From positions 1,738,001 to 1,802,000 of the forward strand of contig NZ_CP018155.1 of assembly GCF_001889045.1 (NCBI RefSeq): a stretch of DNA of 64,000 nt, in the 5' to 3' direction. Position 1 is the stretch's first letter; each line of letters begins with the position of its first letter. The DNA comes from Tenacibaculum todarodis (GTDB taxonomy: Bacteria > Bacteroidota > Bacteroidia > Flavobacteriales > Flavobacteriaceae). A program made the position numbers and the translations under genes. Shown piece after piece: positions 994-28,605 of this stretch. The notes under the pieces are model-generated. The model was not told where the DNA came from, made no database searches, and saw only the letters and a program-made list of their open reading frames with translations.

Positions 994-2121
994 ATGAAAA
1001 AAATTCAAATGGTTGACCTACAAGGTCAATATGCAAAGATAAAATCGCAAGTAAACACCGCTTTTGAAAGTGTTTTAGACACAGCTTACTATATTGGAGG
1101 CCCTGAAGTTAAAGGCTTTGGAGCAGATTTAGAAAAATATTTAGATGTAAAACACGTAATTCCATGTGCAAACGGAACCGACGCTTTGCAAATTGCAATG
1201 ATGGGTTTAGGTTTAGAACAAGGAGATGAAGTTATAACGGCAGATTTTACTTTTGCTGCAACAGTAGAAGTGATTGCACTATTAAAATTAACGCCAGTTT
1301 TGGTTGATGTTGAACCTGATACTTTTAATATAGATATTGAAGCGTTAAAAAAAGCTATTACTCCAAAAACAAAAGCTATTGTTCCTGTTCATTTATTTGG
1401 ACAATGTGCCAATATGGAAGCCGTAATGGAAGTTGCTAAAGAGCATAATCTTTATGTAATTGAAGATAATGCACAAGCAATTGGTGCAGATTATACATTC
1501 TCAGATGGAACAAAAAAGAAATCTGGTACTATTGGAAATGTAGGAACTACTTCATTTTTTCCATCTAAAAACTTAGGATGTTATGGAGATGGTGGCGCAA
1601 TTTTTACAAATGATGACGATTTAGCCCACACAATAAGAGGTATTGTAAATCACGGAATGTACAAACGCTATTACCACGATGTTGTTGGAGTAAATTCTCG
1701 TTTAGACAGTTTACAAGCTGCTGTTTTACAAATAAAATTACCTTTACTGGATGGTTTTTGTGATGCACGAAGAAGCGCTGCGGAATACTATTCTACTGCT
1801 TTTGCTAACAATCCAAATATTATTACACCAGTAATTAGCGATTTTACAACTCATGTTTTTCATCAGTATACTTTAAAAATTACGAATGGAAAACGTAATG
1901 AATTGCATCAACATTTATTAGATAATAATATTCCAAATGCAATTTATTATCCAGTTCCTTTACATGCGCAAAAGGCTTATAAAGACGAACGTTATAATGA
2001 AGCAGATTTTAAAGTTACCAATCAATTAATTGATGAAGTCATTTCTTTACCAATGCACACAGAGTTAGATGAAGAACAATTAGCATTTATAACTAAAACA
2101 ATTTTAAATTTTATTAAGTAA
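994..2121 (+). CDS. DegT/DnrJ/EryC1/StrS family PLP-dependent aminotransferase
   Basis: A 375-residue fold-type I aminotransferase of the sugar-nucleotide family, which typically transfers an amino group from glutamate to a keto-sugar nucleotide for surface polysaccharide synthesis. The cofactor lysine is Lys192 in SFFPSKNLGCYGDGGA. CANGTDALQIAM (58-69) forms the phosphate-binding region and VIEDNAQAIG (155-164) carries the Asp that contacts the pyridine nitrogen. Length is normal for the family. galE follows after 37 nt and a small membrane protein after that, so a three-gene operon for sugar-nucleotide supply is likely. The exact sugar substrate cannot be assigned. Confidence 0.93.
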   Translation: MKKIQMVDLQGQYAKIKSQVNTAFESVLDTAYYIGGPEVKGFGADLEKYLDVKHVIPCANGTDALQIAMMGLGLEQGDEVITADFTFAATVEVIALLKLTPVLVDVEPDTFNIDIEALKKAITPKTKAIVPVHLFGQCANMEAVMEVAKEHNLYVIEDNAQAIGADYTFSDGTKKKSGTIGNVGTTSFFPSKNLGCYGDGGAIFTNDDDLAHTIRGIVNHGMYKRYYHDVVGVNSRLDSLQAAVLQIKLPLLDGFCDARRSAAEYYSTAFANNPNIITPVISDFTTHVFHQYTLKITNGKRNELHQHLLDNNIPNAIYYPVPLHAQKAYKDERYNEADFKVTNQLIDEVISLPMHTELDEEQLAFITKTILNFIK

Positions 2122-2158
2122 AAATCATAAAATATTATTTACCCCCTAAAATAATAAA

Positions 2159-3166
2159 ATGAAAAAAATCCTTGTTACTGGCGGATTAGGTTTTATAGGT
2201 TCTCACACTGTTGTAGAGTTACAAAACGCTGGATTTAATGTTTTAATTATTGACAACCTTTCTAATTCTAGAATAGAGGCTTTAGAACAAATAAAATCCA
2301 TAACAAGTGTAAAACCAGATTTTTACAATATTGATATTCGTAGTAAAGAAGCTTTAAAAAGTTTTTTTGATACTGAAAAAGTAGACGGAATTATTCATTT
2401 CGCAGCTTTAAAAAGTGTTGGTGAAAGCGTACAAAAACCACAAGAGTATTTTGAAAATAATGTAGATGGTTTAGTTAATCTATTAGCTGAAATTAAAAAC
2501 AGAAACCTCAATAATTTAATTTTCAGTTCTTCTTGTACCGTTTATGGACAAGCAGATGAATTGCCGATTACAGAAAACGCTCCACTTAAACCTGCGGAAT
2601 CTCCGTATGGAGAAACCAAACAAATTGGCGAAAAAATTATAAATGAAAGTTGTCTTTCAAACAATTTAAAGGCAATAGCATTGCGTTATTTTAATCCTAT
2701 TGGCGCGCACAAAAGTGCTAAAATTGGCGAATTACCTTTAGGAATTCCACAAAATTTAATTCCGTACGTAACCCAAACTGCAGCTGGAATTAGAGAACAA
2801 TTATCTGTTTTTGGAGACGATTATCCAACTAAAGACGGAACCGCTGTTCGTGATTATATACACGTTGTAGATTTAGCAAAAGCACATATTTCAGCATTAA
2901 AAAGACTCATCAATAAAAGTAACAAAACAAATTTTGAAGTTTTTAATATAGGAACTGGAAAAGGAACTTCAGTTTTAGAAATTATAAAAACTTTTGAAAA
3001 AGTAACCAATCAAAAACTAAATTATAAAATTGTTGAAAGACGCTCTGGAGATATAACTTCTGCCTATGCAGATACTACTCTCGCCAACAAAGAACTGAAT
3101 TGGAAAACAGAAAAAACTTTAGACCAAGCGTTACTCTCTGCCTGGAAATGGCAACAAAAACAATAA
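2159..3166 (+). CDS. galE: UDP-glucose 4-epimerase
   Basis: Interconverts UDP-glucose and UDP-galactose with bound NAD, feeding galactose into glycans or the Leloir pathway. It is a 335-residue extended short-chain dehydrogenase with the nucleotide-binding glycine motif TGGLGFIGS at 7-15, the catalytic Ser in SSSCTVYG (123-130) and the YxxxK pair Tyr150/Lys154 in SPYGETK. The C-terminal RRSGDITSAYAD block is the typical GalE substrate-binding region. Only 6 nt separate it from the next membrane protein gene, so the two are probably co-transcribed with the upstream aminotransferase. Confidence 0.95.
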   Translation: MKKILVTGGLGFIGSHTVVELQNAGFNVLIIDNLSNSRIEALEQIKSITSVKPDFYNIDIRSKEALKSFFDTEKVDGIIHFAALKSVGESVQKPQEYFENNVDGLVNLLAEIKNRNLNNLIFSSSCTVYGQADELPITENAPLKPAESPYGETKQIGEKIINESCLSNNLKAIALRYFNPIGAHKSAKIGELPLGIPQNLIPYVTQTAAGIREQLSVFGDDYPTKDGTAVRDYIHVVDLAKAHISALKRLINKSNKTNFEVFNIGTGKGTSVLEIIKTFEKVTNQKLNYKIVERRSGDITSAYADTTLANKELNWKTEKTLDQALLSAWKWQQKQ

Positions 3167-3172
3167 TAAATT

Positions 3173-3574
3173 ATGGAAAACGAAATTAAGACATTAAAAA
3201 TTATTCATTTTGCATTATTAGCAGGATTAACACTTGGCTATTTTATAATTGGAGACATCTTAAACATTACGGTTCCTACACTAGAAGGAGAAAACTTGTA
3301 TTATATATTTATTCCTGCAATTGCAGTTTTAGCAAGTAACTTTGTATTTAAAAACTTACTATCAAAAATAGATAAGATACAATCTAAAGAAGAAAAAATG
3401 ATGCAATATCAAACAGCTTCAATTGTTCGTTGGGCAATTCTAGAAGGTAGTGCATTTTTAATTTTATTTCTAAAACCTGAATTAGCTATTTTTGGGCTTT
3501 TACTAATATTATACTTATTTTTAGTAAAACCTACTAAAGAAAAAATTGAAAACGAGTTAGATATTAAACTATAG
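3173..3574 (+). CDS. Small four-helix inner-membrane protein of unknown function
   Basis: A 133-residue hydrophobic protein with four probable transmembrane segments near residues 10-30, 43-61, 84-101 and 104-119, and a charged cytoplasmic loop (KIDKIQSKEEKM) between helices 2 and 3. I recognise no enzyme motif. It starts 6 nt after galE stops and a strong terminator follows it, so it is the last gene of the aminotransferase-galE unit. The position may be only operon economy and does not prove a role in glycan synthesis. Confidence 0.75.
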   Translation: MENEIKTLKIIHFALLAGLTLGYFIIGDILNITVPTLEGENLYYIFIPAIAVLASNFVFKNLLSKIDKIQSKEEKMMQYQTASIVRWAILEGSAFLILFLKPELAIFGLLLILYLFLVKPTKEKIENELDIKL

Positions 3575-3618
3575 CGTTTGTAGTTTTAAATGAAACATTA
3601 TAACAACTAATTTTAAAG

Positions 3619-3653
3619 AAAACTCAAACTATATCTAGTTTGAGTTTTTTTTT
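3619..3653 (+). terminator. Rho-independent terminator after the galE operon
   Basis: Perfect 11-bp stem AACTCAAACTA / TAGTTTGAGTT (3621-3631 and 3636-3646) with a TATC loop, ending in a run of nine T. Confidence 0.85.
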
Positions 3654-3717
3654 AACAATACATAAAGATTTTCCTAATTTAGTTTTAGTAATTTTATAAA
3701 CTCAAAAATCAACTCAA

Positions 3718-6549
3718 ATGAAAAAAATATGTATCGCTTTTTTAGCAATTACAAGTTTAATAGCTTGTAATACTTCCAAAGAAAAAACACCGGAACTAAG
3801 TATTAATTACAAAAAAATAGAATTAAAAAATGGATTAGATGTTATCTTTCATGTAGACAAATCAGATCCTGTAGTTGCAGTAGAGTTAATGGTACACGTT
3901 GGTTCTGCTAGAGAAATTGAAGGCCGAACAGGTTTTGCTCATTTATTTGAACATTTATTATTTCTAGAATCTGAAAACTTAGGAAAAGGTGGGTTAGATA
4001 AAATGAGCGCAAGAATTGGTGGTTCTGGAGCAAATGGATCTACTTCTAGAGACAGAACAAACTACTTGCAAACTGTACCAAAAAATGGTTTAGAAAAAAT
4101 GATTTGGGCAGAGGCAGATAAATTAGGTTGGTTTATAAACACCGTTACAGACCCAGTTTTAGCAAAAGAAAAACAAGTTGTAAAGAACGAAAAAAGACAG
4201 AGTAATGATAATAGACCTTATGGTCATAATCAATATGTAATTGGTAAAAACTTATATCCAAAAGATCATCCTTATAACTGGCAAGTAATTGGTTCTTTAG
4301 AAGATTTACAAAATGCTACTTTGCAAGATGTAAAAACATTTTTTAAAAAATGGTATGTTCCTAATAATTCAACCTTAGTTTTGTCTGGAGATATAGATGT
4401 AGAACAGGCAACAAAATGGGTTCATAAATATTTTGATGAAATCCCTAAAGGAAATGAAATTCCTGCATTAGAAAAAAGACCAGGAAAAGTTAACCAAATT
4501 AAATCTTTATATTACGAAGATAATTTTGCAAGAGTACCACAATTAACTATGGTTTGGCCAACTGTTGAACAATACCATCCAGATTCTTATGCATTAAACG
4601 TTTTATCCCAATATTTAACAGACGGAAAATCGGCTCCATTTAATACAATTTTAATTGATGATTTAAAACTAACTTCTCGTACAGGAATGTATAGTAGAAA
4701 TTCCGAATTAGCAGGAGAAACACAAATTGCAATTAGAGCTTTTAACAATGTAAAATTAGATGATGTAAAAGCTGGAATAGAAAAAGCTTTTGCAAAATTT
4801 GAAGAAGAAGGTATTTCTGAAAAAGATTTAAATAGAATTAAAGCCGGACAAGAAACACGCTTTTACAGTAGCTTATCTAGCGTATTAGGAAAAGGAACCA
4901 ATTTAGCTTCTTACAATACATATACAGGAAATCCTGGCTTTGTAACACAAGACATAAAAAACACACTTGCTGTAACAACAGAAGATGTAATACGTGTTTA
5001 TAACAAATACATTAAAGCCAAAAATTATGTAGCCACTAGTTTTGTTCCTAGAAGTTCTGCAGAATTAGCTTTAACAGGAGCTATTTTAGCGGATGTTGTA
5101 GAAGAGAAAATTGTAACAGGAGCAGAAGAGAAATTCGATCCAAAAATTGCTGCAACTTACGAGAAAACCCCTTCTACTTTTGATAGAAGTATAGAACCTC
5201 CATACGGAAATACTCCTTCATTAGCAGTTCCTAAAGTTTATGAGAGTAGCCTAGAAAATGGCTTAAAAATATTCGGAATACAAAATGATGAAGTTCCTTT
5301 AGTGCGTTTTAATATTACTATTGATGGCGGACAATTACTAGAGTCTATGGATAAATTAGGCGTTGCTAATTTAACAGCAGACTTGTTAAACAAAGGAACA
5401 AAAAACAAAAGTGTAAAAGAATTAGAAGAAGCAATTCAAGATTTGGGCGCTACAATTAATGTATATTCAGATACAGAAAACATTACTTTAAGCGGAACAA
5501 CTTTAGCTAAAAACTACACCCAAACATTGGCATTAGCTGAAGAAATTTTGTTAGAACCTAGATTCGATAAAAAAGAGTTCGAATTACTTAAAAAAGCTGC
5601 AATTACTAACTTACGCCAGCAAGAAGCAAATCCAAATTCAGTTGCAAGTAATGCTTACAACGAATTAATTTACGGAAAAGATAATATCCGCTCTAAAAAT
5701 ATTTTAGGTAATTTAACGTCTGTAGAAAAAATAACAATTGACGATTTAAAAACCTATTACAATAATTACATTTCTCCATCTGTCACAAAAATGTTAGTTG
5801 TTGGAGATATTTCTAAAGAAAAAGTAATAACATCTCTAGAAAATTTGAATACAAAATGGAAAGCAAAAGAAGTTACAATACCCGTGTACAAAACACCAGA
5901 TGCTCCTACTAAACCAACAGTTTATTTTTATGACATTCCTAATGCAAAACAATCAACTTTAAAATTTGGTGCTCCAGCTTTAGCGGTAACAGACAAAGAG
6001 TATCATGCAGCTACTGTTATGAATTATATTCTTGGCGGAGGTGGATTTGCTTCTCGTCTAACACAGGAACTAAGAGAAGGAAAAGGGTATACTTACGGAA
6101 TCCGTTCTGGTTTTTCTGGTACAAAAGCAAAAGGAGCTTTCACAATTTCAAGTGGAGTTCGTTCTAATGTTACATTAGAATCTGCACAAGCAGTTAAAAA
6201 AATACTAGAAGACTATCCAACTACTTTTTCTGATAAAGATTTAGAAACAACAAAAAGTTTCTTAATTAAAAGTAATGCAAGAGCATTTGAAACCTCTTGG
6301 GCAAAACTAAATATGCTTTCCAATATTAGTGATTACGGGTTAAAAGCTGATTATGTGAACGACTTTGAAAAAATAGTAAATAATATGACAAAAGAACGTG
6401 TTAAGGAACTTGCTAATAAATATGTAAACCCAAATAAAATGATTTGGTTAGTTGTTGGTGATGCAGAAACACAACTAGAAAGAATGAAAGAATTAGGCTA
6501 TGGAGAACCAATTCTATTAAATAAAAGGCAGCAGAAAATTAAGAACTAG
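3718..6549 (+). CDS. M16 (pitrilysin) family zinc metalloprotease, duplicated, lipoprotein
   Basis: A 943-residue exported peptidase made of two M16 halves. The N-terminus MKKICIAFLAITSLIAC is a lipoprotein signal with lipid-anchor Cys17. The first half carries the inverted zinc motif HLFEH (75-79) with the third ligand Glu158 in VVKNEKRQ, so this half is catalytic. The second half, from about residue 505, has LGVANLTADLLNKG where the zinc motif would be and is a non-catalytic partner domain; its GGGGFASRLTQELREGKGYTYG block is the usual family signature. Likely role: degradation of short peptides in the periplasm. It stands alone between two terminators. Confidence 0.93.
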   Translation: MKKICIAFLAITSLIACNTSKEKTPELSINYKKIELKNGLDVIFHVDKSDPVVAVELMVHVGSAREIEGRTGFAHLFEHLLFLESENLGKGGLDKMSARIGGSGANGSTSRDRTNYLQTVPKNGLEKMIWAEADKLGWFINTVTDPVLAKEKQVVKNEKRQSNDNRPYGHNQYVIGKNLYPKDHPYNWQVIGSLEDLQNATLQDVKTFFKKWYVPNNSTLVLSGDIDVEQATKWVHKYFDEIPKGNEIPALEKRPGKVNQIKSLYYEDNFARVPQLTMVWPTVEQYHPDSYALNVLSQYLTDGKSAPFNTILIDDLKLTSRTGMYSRNSELAGETQIAIRAFNNVKLDDVKAGIEKAFAKFEEEGISEKDLNRIKAGQETRFYSSLSSVLGKGTNLASYNTYTGNPGFVTQDIKNTLAVTTEDVIRVYNKYIKAKNYVATSFVPRSSAELALTGAILADVVEEKIVTGAEEKFDPKIAATYEKTPSTFDRSIEPPYGNTPSLAVPKVYESSLENGLKIFGIQNDEVPLVRFNITIDGGQLLESMDKLGVANLTADLLNKGTKNKSVKELEEAIQDLGATINVYSDTENITLSGTTLAKNYTQTLALAEEILLEPRFDKKEFELLKKAAITNLRQQEANPNSVASNAYNELIYGKDNIRSKNILGNLTSVEKITIDDLKTYYNNYISPSVTKMLVVGDISKEKVITSLENLNTKWKAKEVTIPVYKTPDAPTKPTVYFYDIPNAKQSTLKFGAPALAVTDKEYHAATVMNYILGGGGFASRLTQELREGKGYTYGIRSGFSGTKAKGAFTISSGVRSNVTLESAQAVKKILEDYPTTFSDKDLETTKSFLIKSNARAFETSWAKLNMLSNISDYGLKADYVNDFEKIVNNMTKERVKELANKYVNPNKMIWLVVGDAETQLERMKELGYGEPILLNKRQQKIKN

Positions 6550-7777: not shown

Positions 7778-8464
7778 ATGACACTAGAAAACAAAAATCT
7801 TGCCCAAAATATTTATCTAATTCTGGCTGCATTGTTTATTGCGTCTTTGGTAGCATCAAACTTAATATTTCAGAAATTCTTTTATTGGGAACCATTTGGT
7901 TTGTACCGATTTGAAATTTCTGTTGGAATACTTCCCTATCCGATTACTTTTTTAATAACCGATATTTTATCAGAAATCTACGGAAAAAAGAAAGCAAATC
8001 AAGTTGTAATTGCTGGTATTTTTGCATCCTTTTTTTCAATGTTAATTATTTTAGTGGCAGATTTCACTCCTGCAATTGATAATTCTCCAATAGATAATAA
8101 AACCTTTCATCAAGTTTTTGGATTATCTCCTTTAGCAGTTTTAGCATCCATGTTGGCATATTTACTTGCGCAGTTTATAGATATTAGAATTTTTCATTTC
8201 TGGAAAAAACTAACTAAAGGAAAACACCTTTGGTTACGTAATAACTTTTCAACCTTTGCTTCACAATTTATAGACACTTTTACAGTAGTTTCCTTATTAT
8301 CTATTTTTGGTATTTTACCTTGGTCTATTTTTACATCATTACTAATAAGCGGATTTTTATTCAAAGTAATTATAGCGGCTTTAGACACTCCAATTTTATA
8401 CGGAATTATATACCTTTTCCGAAGAAAATTCAATTTAAAAGTAGGTGAAGAAATTTTGGATTAA
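7778..8464 (+). CDS. Queuosine precursor transporter (YhhQ/DUF165 family)
   Basis: A 228-residue integral membrane protein with about six hydrophobic segments. Its blocks LPYPITFLITDILSEIYGKK (51-70) and FASQFIDTFTVV are typical of the DUF165/VUT_1 family, which imports the queuosine precursors preQ0 or preQ1 used for tRNA modification. I see no preQ1 riboswitch in the upstream gap, which instead holds a dispersed repeat. DUF547 follows 54 nt downstream on the same strand; co-transcription is possible but no functional link is evident. Confidence 0.88.
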   Translation: MTLENKNLAQNIYLILAALFIASLVASNLIFQKFFYWEPFGLYRFEISVGILPYPITFLITDILSEIYGKKKANQVVIAGIFASFFSMLIILVADFTPAIDNSPIDNKTFHQVFGLSPLAVLASMLAYLLAQFIDIRIFHFWKKLTKGKHLWLRNNFSTFASQFIDTFTVVSLLSIFGILPWSIFTSLLISGFLFKVIIAALDTPILYGIIYLFRRKFNLKVGEEILD

Positions 8465-24002: not shown

Positions 24003-24506
24003 ATGAATTTAGAAAGCCAACGTTTAATTATTAGAGAAATTGAAATTAGTGATGCTCCATTTTACTTTGCGTTATTTAACGATCCAGATTGGATTAAATT
24101 TATTTCTGACAAAAACTTAAAATCCATTGAAGAAACTGAAGCTTATCTTAAAAAAATGAAAGTAGATAACGCTAAACTTGGCGGATTAGGATTCTTCACT
24201 GTACTCTTAAAGGAAACCAATAAAGCAATTGGTGTTTCTACAGCTTTACAACGCGACAATTTAGATTTTGTAGATATTGGTTACGGATTTTTACCAAAAT
24301 ATCGTGGAAAAGGATATGCTTCAGAAGCAACAAAACTAATTATTGAATACGTTCGTAAAAAATTTAAACAGCAAAAGGTGTTAGCTTTTACAATGCCTGA
24401 TAATGTGGCTTCTCAAAAATTATTAAAGAACTTAAATTTTAAGTACGTTGGTTTACAAGTTATTTTTGAAAACGAAGAAGACGCAGTTTTTGAATTATTA
24501 TTTTGA
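24003..24506 (+). CDS. GNAT family N-acetyltransferase (RimJ/RimL type)
   Basis: A 167-residue acetyl-CoA-dependent acetyltransferase. The start LESQRLIIREIEISDAPFYF and the acetyl-CoA loop GFLPKYRGKGYASEATKLII (Arg/Gly-x-Gly-x-Ala) are typical of the RimJ/RimL group. The substrate (protein N-terminus or a small amine) is not predictable. It stands alone. The RiPP-like cassette promoter lies directly downstream. Confidence 0.9.
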   Translation: MNLESQRLIIREIEISDAPFYFALFNDPDWIKFISDKNLKSIEETEAYLKKMKVDNAKLGGLGFFTVLLKETNKAIGVSTALQRDNLDFVDIGYGFLPKYRGKGYASEATKLIIEYVRKKFKQQKVLAFTMPDNVASQKLLKNLNFKYVGLQVIFENEEDAVFELLF

Positions 24507-24523
24507 TATTAGAAAAATATATT

Positions 24524-24531
24524 TATATTTG
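24524..24531 (+). promoter_or_regulatory. Promoter of the peptide cassette
   Basis: TATATTTG preceded by TTTTG at 24501-24505 with an 18-nt spacer. This implies an untranslated leader of about 140 nt before the peptide gene, long for this window. Confidence 0.6.
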
Positions 24532-24554
24532 CATCGCTTTTAAAAAGGCATTAG

Positions 24555-24594
24555 ATTTTTAGTTGAACTTATCTCCCGTTCCTTCCAACTAAAA
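24555..24594 (+). other. Leader hairpin upstream of the peptide gene
   Basis: TTTTTAGTTG and CAACTAAAAA are complementary arms separated by 20 nt with two C-rich patches (TCTCCCGTTCCTTC). No T run follows on the plus strand, so it is not a terminator for this direction. Confidence 0.4.
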
Positions 24595-24630
24595 AACATC
24601 CCCCATAAATTATAATATTGAAATAACTTG

Positions 24631-24649
24631 TTTGGTAAAATTTACCAAA
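24631..24649. promoter_or_regulatory. Perfect inverted repeat in the peptide leader
   Basis: TTTGGTAAA - A - TTTACCAAA, a perfect 9-1-9 palindrome 33 nt before the peptide start. Candidate operator or RNA hairpin. Confidence 0.45.
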
Positions 24650-24681
24650 TACAGTTTTAATTAATCGTTAATATATATTTT

Positions 24682-24876
24682 ATGCAAAATTTGGAACAAA
24701 AATTATCTAATTTTTCAATAGAAAAATTAGAAGAAAGAAAAGAATTTACTTTTTACTACTCTCATAGTCACAGTTGTTACTGTAGTTGTGATAACGGTGA
24801 CGGTGGAAACGGTGACGGTGGAAACGGAAACGGTGGAAACGGAAACGGTGACGGAAACGGAGGCGGAAACGGATAG
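24682..24876 (+). CDS. Putative RiPP precursor peptide, Cys motif plus Gly/Asn/Asp tail
   Basis: A 64-residue peptide with three zones. Residues 1-22 (MQNLEQKLSNFSIEKLEERK) are charged and helical, like leader peptides of Bacteroidota RiPPs. Residues 23-38 are aromatic and nucleophile-rich: TFYYSHSHSCYCSCDN with Cys32, Cys34 and Cys36. Residues 39-64 consist only of Gly, Asn and Asp. It has its own promoter, and a terminator-like hairpin separates it from two downstream genes (a terpene-synthase-like protein and an M50 protease), a layout that makes excess precursor over enzyme. I know no named family with this core. A small structural or metal-binding protein is the alternative. Confidence 0.75.
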   Translation: MQNLEQKLSNFSIEKLEERKEFTFYYSHSHSCYCSCDNGDGGNGDGGNGNGGNGNGDGNGGGNG

Positions 24877-24898
24877 GATAAATACAATTTCACTTTAG

Positions 24899-24933
24899 AA
24901 AAGCTTGGGTTAATATTAATTCAAGCTTTTTTT
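24899..24933 (+). terminator. Terminator/attenuator between the peptide and enzyme genes
   Basis: AAAAGCTTG / CAAGCTTTT outer stem continued by an inner TTAA/TTAA stem, followed by T7. No second promoter is seen before 24951, so read-through probably supplies the downstream genes. Confidence 0.7.
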
Positions 24934-24950
24934 ATATTATTACTTAAAAA

Positions 24951-25766
24951 ATGAAAGCAACTAAAGATAATAAAATCTTTTTCTTTAAAAATCAGGTTTC
25001 CTTTCTAAAAGAAGCTTTTTTAATAAATAATATTGATTTATTTAATGATTTTAATGAAGCTGTAGAATTATATTGCTATTATACTTTAGAACTAGATAAA
25101 ATCGTTGATGGAGAATCTAACTTTATAGCTCAGCACAAAGCAAAAGTAAACAACACACTTCAAGCAGTTAAAAGCGGTCAAGTTTCTATACAAATACTAT
25201 CTAAGATTTTTGAGAAAAAAAATTCTTTCTGGAATGATTTAGATAATATGCAAGAGCTATACTATCAGAATACTTTAACAGAAAAACATCAAAACATCCA
25301 GAAACCAAACTTTACAGTTAAAGATTTTGAAATATATGCAGAAGCTAAACATTGCTTAGCTTATATACCAATTTTAGGTTTAGATTATTTATTTAATGGC
25401 TATCATGATAAAATGACGCTTAAAAAAATTTATAAGCACATATTTTTTGCTATTCAAATGAATGATGATTTAGAAGACTATACAAAAGACATCAACAATA
25501 ATCAATGGACATACTTACATGCAAATGTTGATAATTTTATTGAACAAGAAAAAATAAAAAACAATACAGATTTAACCAACTTTAAAGAACGAGTTTTATA
25601 TGTTTCTGGCATAGGATCAGAAGCTATAACATACTCTAAAAAACATTTTAATAAAGCTTTAGAATTATCTTTAGAATTAAAGCTAACAGAATTAACTTCT
25701 TGGCTTAAAAAAACTATTTCAGATATAGAAAGTAACGAGAAATTAATACTAAGTTTATTAGACTAA
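24951..25766 (+). CDS. Terpene-synthase-like (class I isoprenoid synthase fold) protein, possible peptide-modifying enzyme
   Basis: A 271-residue all-helical protein. Two acidic motifs sit where class I isoprenoid enzymes bind Mg-diphosphate: LDKIVDGE (Asp49, Asp53) and IQMNDDLEDYTKD (168-180), followed by NNNQWTYL, much like the Q-x-x-N-D-x-x-x-D...YL stretch of phytoene/squalene synthases. Overall similarity to known synthases is low and the first motif lacks a full DDxxD. ComQ, which prenylates the ComX pheromone, belongs to this fold, so a prenyl-transfer role on the peptide at 24682 is a reasonable hypothesis. The next gene follows after 12 nt. The prediction rests on motifs and needs a structure model. 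Confidence 0.65.
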   Translation: MKATKDNKIFFFKNQVSFLKEAFLINNIDLFNDFNEAVELYCYYTLELDKIVDGESNFIAQHKAKVNNTLQAVKSGQVSIQILSKIFEKKNSFWNDLDNMQELYYQNTLTEKHQNIQKPNFTVKDFEIYAEAKHCLAYIPILGLDYLFNGYHDKMTLKKIYKHIFFAIQMNDDLEDYTKDINNNQWTYLHANVDNFIEQEKIKNNTDLTNFKERVLYVSGIGSEAITYSKKHFNKALELSLELKLTELTSWLKKTISDIESNEKLILSLLD

Positions 25767-25778
25767 TATTTTTTATTG

Positions 25779-26927
25779 ATGTCTTTAATTAAAAAAACAT
25801 ACATACTCTCTTCTTATCAAAAAGATAAATGGGTAATTGAAGTAGATAATAATCATTTTATTATTTTAGAAAATGTAAAAGAGTTATTAAAAATCTTAGA
25901 AAACAACAATACCCCTAATGAAGCTTTAATTAATTTTAATTTACATTTTAATGATAATTTAAATGAAATAGAATTTGAAGAATTCATTCATAAAACACTT
26001 ACAAAATTAAATTTACTTGACAGTAAAGAACCAACCAAGACAAAAAGCTTTATTAAATTTGAGAAAATTATTTTAAATAAAAATAGAGCTGGAAAAATCT
26101 CCTCTTATTTTGAGTTTTTATTCAACCCAATTTTTTTTTGGTTTTCATTTTTTATTTTAATTATTATTGCTATAATTTCTGTAATCAAGCTTCCTATATA
26201 CGGTAATACAAGGTTACCCGTGTTTTTAATTATGCTACTTTATTTCCCTACCATATTACTACACGAAATTGGCCATGTTGCTGCTTGTAAGAAGTTTACC
26301 GGAAGATCAAGTGAAATTGGCATGGGTATTTATATAGTTTTTCCTGTTTTTTTCTCAAGTATATCTGCTATTTGGCATGGTAAAAAAGAAGAAAGAATTA
26401 TAGCTAATTTAGCAGGAATCTACATGCAACTCTGGTGTATGTTACTTTTTATTGGCTTATATTTTATTACAAAATCTCCTATTTTTATTCATATGATTTT
26501 TTTAACAGGAGTTTATAATTTTATTCAATTACTACCATTTATTAGAAGTGATGGTTATTGGTTATTATCTGACCTTACTTCTACACCAAACCTGTTATCT
26601 AAATCTAAAGAGGTTCTTAAAGAAATATTGCTTCCTCCATACTTTTTAAAAGGAAAAATAAAACTAAAAAAAGTATTTTTATTTTTCTACGGAGCTTTTA
26701 ACTTTATAATAATAGGTAATTTTATTTTTTTTCAATTAAAATATAATTGGGTTGGTATTTCTGAATTTCCAGCGACAATATGGAACTTAATTAAAAACAT
26801 TTTTACTTTACAATTTTCTAAAGTAATAATACAATACAACTATGTAACAATTTCTATTTTCTATATGATAGTATTTACTTATCTAAAGAAATGGGTTAAA
26901 ATTTTAAAAGACAAAATCACTTCTTAA
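25779..26927 (+). CDS. M50-type membrane metalloprotease with PqqD/RRE-like N-terminus
   Basis: A 382-residue protein. Residues 1-80 look like a PqqD-type RiPP recognition element (beta strands around KDKWVIEVDNNHFIILENV, then helices). Several transmembrane helices follow (about 117-138, 146-161 and 210-265). The zinc motif is HEIGH (162-166) in LLHEIGHVAACKKF, and the third ligand is probably Asp258 in LPFIRSDGYWLL, the M50 second motif. Related enzymes with this plan, such as YydH in the epipeptide cluster, process or export RiPPs. It would recognise the leader of the 64-residue peptide and cut it in the membrane. I start at ATG 25779; an in-frame TTG precedes it. Confidence 0.8.
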   Translation: MSLIKKTYILSSYQKDKWVIEVDNNHFIILENVKELLKILENNNTPNEALINFNLHFNDNLNEIEFEEFIHKTLTKLNLLDSKEPTKTKSFIKFEKIILNKNRAGKISSYFEFLFNPIFFWFSFFILIIIAIISVIKLPIYGNTRLPVFLIMLLYFPTILLHEIGHVAACKKFTGRSSEIGMGIYIVFPVFFSSISAIWHGKKEERIIANLAGIYMQLWCMLLFIGLYFITKSPIFIHMIFLTGVYNFIQLLPFIRSDGYWLLSDLTSTPNLLSKSKEVLKEILLPPYFLKGKIKLKKVFLFFYGAFNFIIIGNFIFFQLKYNWVGISEFPATIWNLIKNIFTLQFSKVIIQYNYVTISIFYMIVFTYLKKWVKILKDKITS

Positions 26928-26943
26928 TAAAAGTCTTAGACAT

Positions 26944-26972
26944 AAAAAAGCATCCAAATTGGATGCTTTTTT
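26944..26972. terminator. Bidirectional terminator between the peptide cassette and pckA
   Basis: AAAAAAGCATCC - AAATT - GGATGCTTTTTT, a perfect 12-bp stem with A and T tails on the two sides. Confidence 0.88.
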
Positions 26973-26994
26973 ATATCTAATAGAATCTGATAAA

Positions 26995-28605
26995 TTAAAA
27001 AGTAAATCGCTGAGGACCACCTCTTCTTATATCTTCATTTGCAACGTCTTCAAATTGCGTAAAGTTATTTCTAAATGCATTCGATAATTTAAATGCTGTT
27101 TTATAATATTCTTCATCATTATTCCAAGTAGCTCTTGGGCTTAATAACTCTGTTGGAACTCCAGGACATGTTCTTGGTTGTGCTACACCAAATACAGAAT
27201 GGATATGATAATCTTCATATCTGTAACTTCCTAAATCTCCATTTAAAACAGCAGAAATCATTGCTCTTGTGTATTTTAATGGCATTCTTCTACCAACTCC
27301 ATACTTACCACCAGACCAGCCAGTGTTAATTAGCCAAACATTTACATTTGCATCTTTCATCTTTTTACTAAGCATCTCTGCATATTTTGTAGGATGTAAG
27401 GGCATAAACGGTGCTCCAAAACATGCAGAAAAACTTGGTGTTGGCTCTGTAACTCCAGCTTCTGTACCTGCAACTTTAGCTGTATAACCAGAAATAAAGT
27501 GATACGCTGCTTGGTTTGGTGTTAATTTAGATATTGGAGGCAAAACACCAAAAGCATCTGCCGTTAAGAAGAAAATATTTTTTGGATTCTTACCAATTGA
27601 TGGCTCTTTAATATTTTCTATATGATAAATTGGATAACTAACTCTTGTATTCTGAGTAATTGAAGTATCAGCAAAGTCGATAGCTCCTTTATCATCCATT
27701 ACAATATTTTCTAAGATAGCTCCTTTTTTAATTGCTCCAAAAATTTCTGGCTCTTGCTCTTGCGATAAGTTAATCACTTTTGCGTAACAACCTCCTTCAA
27801 AGTTAAAAACAGTGTTTTCAGCAGTCCAACCATGTTCGTCATCACCAATTAAACTTCTATCAGGATCTGTAGAAAGTGTAGTTTTTCCTGTACCCGATAA
27901 TCCGAAGAAAATTGCTGTATCTCCATCTTTACCAACGTTTGCAGAACAATGCATTGGCAACGTATTTTTATAAACTGGTAAAATAAAGTTTAAAGCAGAA
28001 AAAATTCCTTTTTTAATTTCACCTGTATAACCTGTACCTCCAATTAATGCAATTTTCTTTTCAAAATTTAAAATTGCAAAATTGTGTTGACGAGTTCCAT
28101 CAACTTCAGCATCAGCCATAAAACCTGGTGCGTTTATTACTGTCCACTCTGGAGAAAAATCTTTTAACTCTTCTTCTGTAGGTCTTAAAAACATATTATA
28201 AGCAAACATGTTGCTCCAAGGATATTCATTTACTACACGAATATTTAACTTGTAATCTTCGTCTGCACACGCATAAGAATCTCTAACAAAAATTTCTTTA
28301 TTAGAGAGATAAGCTACAACTTTATCATACAATTTATCAAATTTAACTGCATCAAAAGGAATGTTAATATCTCCCCACCAAACTTTGTCTTTAGTAATAT
28401 TGTCTTTTACAATAAACCTGTCCATTGGTGAACGTCCTGTAAACTCTCCTGTATTAACAGCAATTGCCCCTAAAGAAGATTCTTTTCCTTGTTTTTTTTC
28501 TAAAACTTCAGCATGTAAATCATCTGAAGATAATTGATAACGAATTGTTGCGTTTTTAATTCCTAAACCGTCTAACGAAATCGTTTTCGTATTAAGATCT
28601 GTCAT
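26995..28605 (-). CDS. pckA: Phosphoenolpyruvate carboxykinase (ATP)
   Basis: Converts oxaloacetate and ATP to phosphoenolpyruvate and CO2, the first committed step of gluconeogenesis. The 536-residue length is normal. Visible motifs: FTGRSPMDRFIV near the N-terminus (substrate site), the kinase P-loop GLSGTGKTTLS, LIGDDEHGW (metal-binding Asp residues) and NTGWSGGKYGVGRRM near the C-terminus. It has its own promoter (28638-28645) and shares the terminator at 26944 with the convergent peptide cassette. Confidence 0.97.
   Translation of the reverse strand: MTDLNTKTISLDGLGIKNATIRYQLSSDDLHAEVLEKKQGKESSLGAIAVNTGEFTGRSPMDRFIVKDNITKDKVWWGDINIPFDAVKFDKLYDKVVAYLSNKEIFVRDSYACADEDYKLNIRVVNEYPWSNMFAYNMFLRPTEEELKDFSPEWTVINAPGFMADAEVDGTRQHNFAILNFEKKIALIGGTGYTGEIKKGIFSALNFILPVYKNTLPMHCSANVGKDGDTAIFFGLSGTGKTTLSTDPDRSLIGDDEHGWTAENTVFNFEGGCYAKVINLSQEQEPEIFGAIKKGAILENIVMDDKGAIDFADTSITQNTRVSYPIYHIENIKEPSIGKNPKNIFFLTADAFGVLPPISKLTPNQAAYHFISGYTAKVAGTEAGVTEPTPSFSACFGAPFMPLHPTKYAEMLSKKMKDANVNVWLINTGWSGGKYGVGRRMPLKYTRAMISAVLNGDLGSYRYEDYHIHSVFGVAQPRTCPGVPTELLSPRATWNNDEEYYKTAFKLSNAFRNNFTQFEDVANEDIRRGGPQRFTF

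Follow-up and report, generated by a model that had tools for sequence, protein, structure and literature searches.

Does the short gene that precedes an isoprenoid-synthase-like gene and a membrane-protease gene in Tenacibaculum todarodis belong with them to one system for making a modified peptide, and, if so, which of its residues would be modified? The three genes lie in a stretch of 64,000 nucleotides of contig NZ_CP018155.1, which we call the window and to which all coordinates refer. An earlier note made from the letters alone (the original prediction) had described them as a compact cassette for a ribosomally synthesised and post-translationally modified peptide (RiPP), and its positions for peptide, enzyme, protease, hairpin and palindrome were all in place (Table 1). 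Here we report that peptide, enzyme and protease are one conserved unit. With moderate confidence, we interpret this unit as a minimal RiPP operon of the trans-isoprenyl-diphosphate-synthase-like (trans-IDS-like) peptide-prenyltransferase family, in which Tyr25 of the precursor would be the probable acceptor and the M50 protease would release the lipidated peptide.

Peptide, enzyme and protease genes form one conserved unit

Genes for the peptide, the enzyme and the protease were found in the same order in 9/9 loci of the window type, that is, in the window and in Algibacter, Chryseobacterium and Leeuwenhoekiella. The peptide gene is directly upstream of the enzyme gene in all nine, and the protease gene directly downstream. 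No other open reading frame (ORF) of at least 80 amino acids was common to the nine loci in flanks of up to 8 kb (just 3 kb on one side in locus L012). The three genes are therefore a single conserved unit.

The eight loci other than the window came from a scan of named genomes with an alignment of 17 enzyme rows (A1), which found one in Algibacter pacificus, three in Chryseobacterium and four in Leeuwenhoekiella. Of 249 genomes covered by a family-level search, 7 gave a match to the enzyme. One of these (L008), a methylase-like protein by its look, was false and was discarded as an enzyme locus; L004 and L010 are the same place, as are L005 and L017. Scanning genome contigs with a single protein gave none among 58 candidate stretches. 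Neighbourhoods were read at 24 loci, comprising the nine of the window type, two others with a stand-alone enzyme (L018 and L037) and 13 with a fused enzyme. A peptide with the leader motif was present outside larger ORFs in 24/24 of these enzyme loci and in 0/90 unrelated loci (342 kb). The possibility raised by the original prediction, that homologues of enzyme and protease might never occur with such peptides, was not borne out: leader peptides accompany the enzyme at all 24 loci read.

That a Gly-rich ORF without translation just happens to lie beside unrelated genes might be suspected from the simple-sequence tail of the peptide and from database searches, in which the peptide had no significant Pfam or NCBIfam match and neither had the enzyme (its best was SPATA6, E 0.024, below its cut-off). 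However, one gene order in four genera, the 90 unrelated loci devoid of the peptide and the ten DNA versions of one leader block described below refute this explanation, which we regard as hardly credible.

In Chryseobacterium, three similar proteins with a signal-peptide-like start are encoded directly before the precursor and in the same direction (L011 5362-7704, L012 176-2510, L013 5344-7703). They are of the GINT..PQQALHVSG type, the three tested had no Pfam match at E 0.01, and they are possibly surface carriers.

The precursor combines a constant leader with divergent cores

A leader block of 12 residues, EKLEERKEFTFY, is identical in ten peptides of the nine window-type loci, two of them in L012. 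The ten DNA versions of this block are all different and, since the residues stay constant while every DNA version differs, we conclude that the peptide is translated. The cores are divergent, with CYCSC followed by Gly/Asn/Asp in the window, a Cys/Pro-rich sequence in Leeuwenhoekiella and Cys/Pro/Gly in Chryseobacterium. A constant leader, a varying core and an adjoining enzyme gene, as are required of a RiPP precursor, were found for ten peptides at nine loci. The RiPP-like logic of the original prediction is supported.

Tandem precursors were observed in three loci (two in L012, five in L078 and three in L079), and no second precursor was detected when the window genome was searched with the window peptide. 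Because L078 and L079 contribute eight peptides that are almost copies of one another, counts of loci are safer than counts of peptides.

The enzyme is related to class I isoprenoid synthases through a wider family

We compared 31 N-terminal domains of the enzyme family with 30 polyprenyl synthases encoded in the genome of the window and in related ones. This profile comparison gave a score of 44.6 over 222 columns (probability 78%, E 1.8e-5). When the columns of the synthases were shuffled 100 times the score never exceeded 21.6, and the reversed profile gave 20.3. In the alignment D49 and D53 face the DDxxD of the synthases, and QMNDDLED faces their second motif. A PDB search with the 27-row profile A3 found the polyprenyl synthetase 4lob at 3.4e-6 and, of its 28 matches at E up to 5, all but 4 unrelated ones were synthases of prenyl diphosphates or terpenes (24). 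Residues D49, D53, D172, D173, D176 and D180 are invariant in A3, and Q169 and K133 are kept in at least 90% of its rows.

Several observations weigh against this assignment. The first Asp motif is altered to DKxxD and is not the canonical DDxxD, although D49 and D53 are invariant and the second motif is complete. The 17 window-type rows of A1, compared alone with the polyprenyl synthases, scored 18.7 (E 0.12, probability 0.5%), which is not significant, and they gave three chance matches in PDB. With the 19-row profile A2 an unrelated repeat protein was the top PDB match (3.7e-5), and seven prenyl synthases came after it with a best E of 0.033. As the window-type rows alone are not significant, the class I assignment depends on the intermediates of the wider family. 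Profile comparison thus shows the window enzyme to be a divergent class I, trans-IDS-like protein by way of that family and not by its own sequence alone, and the isoprenoid-synthase-like tailoring enzyme of the original prediction holds with the same qualification.

The tree unites the 11 window-type rows in a single clade (100/100), which sits amid fused forms at the end of a long branch of 2.31 changes per column. Support for its exact place is weak, and no fewer than two changes are required to explain the stand-alone state. The long branch, the altered first motif and the absence of Trp from the peptide would also suit a class I fold that carries out other peptide chemistry, such as a Cys cross-link, or acts only as a chaperone. 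The six Asp of both motifs are nevertheless invariant in the 27 rows, which argues for a retained Mg-diphosphate site, and we consider such a change of function improbable.

An enzyme with both Asp motifs largely kept, the second completely, could instead make or cyclise a small unattached isoprenoid, or feed prenyl diphosphate to another enzyme, and PalQ itself was formerly classified among the terpene synthases, according to parts of PMC10853753. The leader peptide near the enzyme in every one of the 24 loci speaks against this. So do the absence of a further tailoring enzyme from window-type units and the two ordinary polyprenyl synthases that the host genome already has besides the cassette enzyme. 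A free isoprenoid product therefore appears distinctly improbable.

Most relatives are fused to a cyclase-like domain

Of 395 Bacteroidota genomes searched with broader alignments, 13 contained the enzyme domain. Three of these are weak (L031-L033) and stand outside the 24-locus count; L033 resembles the usual polyprenyl synthases. Outside the window type the domain is mostly the N-terminal part of a protein of 570-740 amino acids. In 13 of the 15 other loci it is fused to a squalene-hopene-cyclase-like domain, mostly with Trp-containing precursors, while L037 has a stand-alone enzyme of 316 amino acids. The fused relatives are spread over several Bacteroidota families. Squalene-hopene cyclase (PF13243) was matched by 7 of 9 proteins scanned, a set without the L077-L079 enzymes; L036 and L037 had no match, and the domain was also found in L007 and L009. 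The C-terminal half of the L038 protein matched squalene-hopene cyclases 8pak and 1gsz and MstE 6sbd in PDB. Fourteen aligned C-terminal halves have DxDD, the class II acid motif, in eight cases and DxDS at the same place in six.

A search with the fused protein of Chryseobacterium defluvii, in which 8000 candidates were scored, found at least 265 relatives at E up to 0.001. The named relatives among the 120 listed belong to Bacteroidota, with labels that include geranylgeranyl pyrophosphate synthase, prenyltransferase and squalene-hopene cyclase; such labels may be misleading.

The surroundings of the fused enzymes are varied. Radical SAM/SPASM RiPP maturases are encoded nearby in L038, L039 and L042, as identified by profile, and in L040 and L041 by look; L042 also has a P450 near the fused enzyme (1108-3770), so that a richer hybrid pathway is possible there. 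A CarboxypepD_reg-like protein lies beside the fused enzyme in L036 (7372-8544) and L038 (7855-8691) by profile and in L019 (787-1956) and L039 (7604-8434) by look, and the counterpart protein tested in L009/L020 gave no match. In L020 (5390-6289) the interval between the protease and MacB-like ABC genes contains, by look, a second peptide, whose leader is of the GG type, and an ORF resembling a C39 peptidase. The enzyme frame of L035 (6049-8037) stops at 572 amino acids, and a short frame at 7798-8037 resembles the end of the cyclase domain.

The protease carries M50 motifs and a possibly PqqD-like N-terminus

The best profile match of the protease was NCBIfam NF041824 (daptide_HExxH; E 4.9e-22, 78.6 bits, cut-off 300) over residues 14-286. 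It also matched NF058609 (YydH/LiaK; E 1.7e-13, 50.8 bits, cut-off 225), and Pfam M50 at an E of 1.2 only. A protease with HExGH and DGYW was found in 23 of the 24 loci, the exception being L035, at a contig end. We take the Asp of DGYW to be the third zinc ligand, as in other M50 proteases. The HExxH motif and this Asp ligand of the M50 type are both present in the alignment of the window protease. The L013 protease has a GTG start and 383 amino acids, and no second protease of the cassette type was detected in the window genome. Three congeners (L077, L078 and L079) have proteases of 689-691 amino acids with an extra C-terminal part.

When the N-terminal 118 columns of the protease were compared with 28 PqqD proteins, hhalign gave 24.9 over 66 columns, yet a probability of 19%. 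The highest score in 100 shuffles was 12.0, and the remainder of the protease scored 11.8. The margin over the shuffles favours the PqqD-like N-terminus attributed to this protease by the original prediction, but the Pfam PqqD model PF05402 had no match anywhere in the window genome, and the likeness is tentative.

Acceptor residue and proposed mechanism

The window-type peptides have Phe at +3 and Tyr at +4 in 10/10 cases and Trp after the leader in 0/10. Among fused-type peptides, 24/25 (12/13 loci) have a Trp no more than nine residues from the leader motif, and in 21/25 (11/13 loci) it is at +3 or +4. Of the peptides from the other stand-alone loci, that of L018 has Trp at +3 and that of L037 has none.

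We propose that the peptide would be overproduced, many transcripts ending at the hairpin behind its gene. The 271-residue enzyme would bind a C10-C20 prenyl diphosphate from host metabolism via Mg at D49/D53 and D172/D173/D176/D180 and, as suggested by its family, move the prenyl chain onto the precursor. Since the peptide has no Trp, the chain would sit on another residue, probably Tyr25, in place of the Trp of the fused relatives, with a core Cys as the next candidate; since the enzyme has no cyclase domain, the chain would stay acyclic. It would then hold the peptide in the membrane, while the PqqD-like N-terminus of the protease grips the leader. The M50 site would cut near FTFY and free a lipidated Cys/Gly-rich peptide, perhaps outward as has been proposed for EpeP. 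Prenyl transfer, acceptor, membrane handover and release are all steps that we infer, and a signal, an antagonist or a surface lipopeptide are candidate roles for the product. In evolutionary terms, the window type may be a trans-IDS-like branch that has no cyclase domain and whose acceptor switched from Trp to Tyr or Cys, a suggestion that we make tentatively.

A different acceptor is conceivable. In this alternative a core cysteine would be S-prenylated by the trans-IDS-like enzyme, and Tyr25 would be merely part of the cleavage site. Cys, a good nucleophile, occurs in 10/10 window-type cores and in the peptides of both L018 and L037, and Tyr25 is the very last residue of the conserved stretch, as would be expected of a leader boundary. 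On the other hand, the first Cys of the window-type peptides shifts between +5, +10, +11 and +12 while Phe +3 and Tyr +4 stay constant, Cys is also present in 21/25 fused-type peptides, nearly all of which have Trp too, and eukaryotic enzymes use zinc to activate the thiol, as stated in passages of the review PMC13290415. We regard S-prenylation as unlikely, though it deserves serious consideration.

The mechanism that we propose has its own difficulties. In the parts of the same review that deal with these enzymes, all characterised trans-IDS-like enzymes are Trp-specific and the activity of PalQ is abolished when its Trp is replaced; Q169, the Gln that the review ties to Trp recognition, is kept in the window enzyme. 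FTFY may be conserved as a cleavage or recognition site instead of an acceptor. Furthermore, gene order varies at fused loci, the peptide being behind the enzyme in L035 and several kb away in L037 and L038.

Were the acceptor indeed a residue other than Trp, the rule of Trp specificity for trans-IDS-like peptide prenyltransferases would fall, and comparison of stand-alone and fused enzymes would show how the choice of acceptor evolved. This would be the first non-Trp target in the class, going by the statement in PMC13290415, and would mean that flavobacteria make peptides that contain Cys and carry an acyclic isoprenoid. With only three genes and a presumably acyclic product, the operon lends itself to tests in E. 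coli, and the relatives, at least 265 in number, are a sizeable pool of candidate isoprenoid-peptide hybrids.

Layout and regulatory elements of the cassette

The features of the cassette and its flanks are collected in Table 1.

Table 1. Features of the cassette and its flanks, in window coordinates
Feature	Position	Strand	Remarks
GNAT gene	24003-24506		Upstream flank; Pfam 1.7e-26
Promoter-like site TTTG-N18-TATATTTG	24502..24531	+	Pattern match; its one support is its place upstream of the operon
Perfect 19-bp palindrome TTTGGTAAAATTTACCAAA	24631..24649	.	5' untranslated region
Precursor peptide ORF, 64 amino acids	24682-24876	+	Leader to ...EKLEERKE, then FTFYY, then CYCSC-Gly/Asn/Asp core; without Trp
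Codons of F22-T23-F24-Y25	24745..24756	+	F24-Y25 at the offset of Trp in fused-type precursors
Hairpin and T-run between peptide and enzyme genes	24897-24932	+	Terminator scan; z -4.3
Trans-IDS-like enzyme, 271 amino acids	24951-25766	+	Stand-alone, no cyclase domain
First Asp motif D49-K-I-V-D53	25095..25109	+	DKxxD (canonical DDxxD); profile alignment places it opposite DDxxD
Second Asp motif Q169-M-N-D-D-L-E-D-Y-T-K-D180	25455..25490	+	
M50 membrane metalloprotease, 382 amino acids from ATG	25779-26927	+	N-terminus like PqqD/RiPP recognition element (RRE)
PqqD/RRE-like region, residues 17-82	25827..26024	+	hhalign
HEIGH zinc motif H162-H166	26262..26276	+	HExGH invariant in 17/17
DGYW motif D258-W261	26550..26561	+	Invariant in 17/17 aligned proteases
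Terminator-like palindrome	26936-26980	.	Between protease gene and gene called pckA, convergent; listed on the minus strand
Gene called pckA	26995-28605	minus	Downstream flank, convergent; name from the original prediction

A hairpin between the peptide and enzyme genes was predicted in 10/10 regions (the nine of the window type and L018), with energies of -14 to -25 kcal/mol and z of -2.9 to -5.5 (200 shuffles each; 0 or 1 shuffle equally good). The stems are unrelated between genera, and the T-run is just four long in L011 and L012. The hairpin fits an attenuator-like element, in which the precursor would be kept in excess over the enzyme because many transcripts would stop there, as its position and conservation suggest.

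The two-part promoter of the original prediction exists as a pattern, but TTTG-N-TAnnTTTG, which we take to be the promoter consensus, was found 5 times in the window against 7.3 expected and is thus no rarer than chance. The 19-bp palindrome has a single exact copy in the genome and, by eye, none was seen upstream of the other eight window-type loci; it is a possible operator candidate. A terminator scan of 24400-27050 gave three matches compared to a shuffled mean of 0.6, and two of the three are one palindrome, that behind the protease gene. Of the bidirectional terminator suggested there, the palindrome and its minus-strand listing stand, whereas its use as a plus-strand terminator as well is presumed. 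The three-gene unit contains no immunity, exporter, sensor-kinase, regulator or radical SAM gene.

The cassette was probably acquired

Protease and enzyme genes have the lowest and second-lowest GC content (0.24 and 0.25) of the 39 window ORFs of at least 200 amino acids. Among 146 genomes of the genus searched with alignment A1, the enzyme domain was present in 4, the window's own included; the stand-alone form occurs only in the latter, and the other three have the fused form. The gene called pckA had a match in 57 of 58 genomes of the genus (own included), and 30 loci were compared. In the 29 other loci its far side is kept, with the 126-residue neighbour in 29/29 and the next gene in 28/29, and the 1500 bases next to it yielded no cassette protease and no GNAT gene; a contig end truncates the cassette side in two of them, L083 and L109. 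No clean empty site was found among the 29, and acquisition of the cassette is therefore likely, not proven. The low GC content and the restriction of the stand-alone form to one genome agree with the discrete, probably acquired unit of the original prediction.

Comparison with known systems

Neither a defence nor a phage system was recognised, there being no PHROGs match for the three proteins (E 0.001) and no PADLOC match for two (E 0.01). The protease resembles those of small RiPP cassettes. MpaP of the daptides, an RRE-dependent intramembrane peptidase according to parts of PMC10036551, is likewise an intramembrane metalloprotease of a RiPP, and the daptide profile is the best match of the window protease, its N-terminal part included. 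Membership among the daptides was rejected, given the score below the cut-off and the lack of a daptide tailoring gene in the three-gene unit, the only part of the genome searched for one. Daptide tailoring employs the set MpaB/C/D/M. YydH/LiaK of the epipeptides also belongs to a small RiPP cassette and is of the M50 type, and cleavage and export have been proposed for EpeP (PMC10885120, in part); here too the score falls below the cut-off and the unit has no radical SAM gene, so that an epipeptide was rejected. Class II squalene-hopene cyclases and MstE resemble the C-terminal domain of the fused relatives, a domain that the window enzyme lacks. Two RRE papers (PMC12710340 and PMC7470986) use none of the words M50, terpene and prenyl in their main texts, and no treatment of the stand-alone variant was recognised in the titles and abstract openings among the literature matches listed.

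On the side of the enzyme, passages of PMC13290415 list ComQ, PalQ and the P domain of ChrPC as trans-IDS-like prenyltransferases. ComQ/ComX of Bacillus and PalQ/PalX of Paenibacillus share with the window unit a stand-alone trans-IDS-like enzyme and a small peptide, but both modify Trp, as the same passages state, and ComQ has no second Asp motif according to parts of PMC10853753, whereas that of the window enzyme is complete and its unit includes a putatively RRE-type M50 protease. The unit has neither the Trp-containing peptide nor the comP/comA genes of ComQXPA, its flanks being the GNAT gene and the gene called pckA.

ChrPC (Hubrich et al. 2024, as told in passages of PMC13290415) is nearer than ComQ/ComX; the latter, named by the original prediction as the nearest precedent, was rejected for this reason and for the lack of Trp in the window peptide. 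Its P domain prenylates an internal Trp and its C domain cyclises the prenyl group. Like the window unit as we interpret it, it pairs a trans-IDS-like prenyltransferase with a ribosomal peptide, and the fused relatives, whose leader is related to that of the window, have the P-C architecture and a Trp just after the leader; by the architecture that the review describes, they appear to belong with ChrPC. As ChrPC is already published, this kind of system is a described one, contrary to what the original prediction had suggested. The window enzyme differs from it in ending without a cyclase domain and in the DKxxD of its first motif, and the window precursors differ in having a Cys-containing core and no Trp. 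A variant with neither cyclase domain nor precursor Trp looks new within the ChrPC-like kind, and it looks like a good candidate for a non-Trp acceptor.

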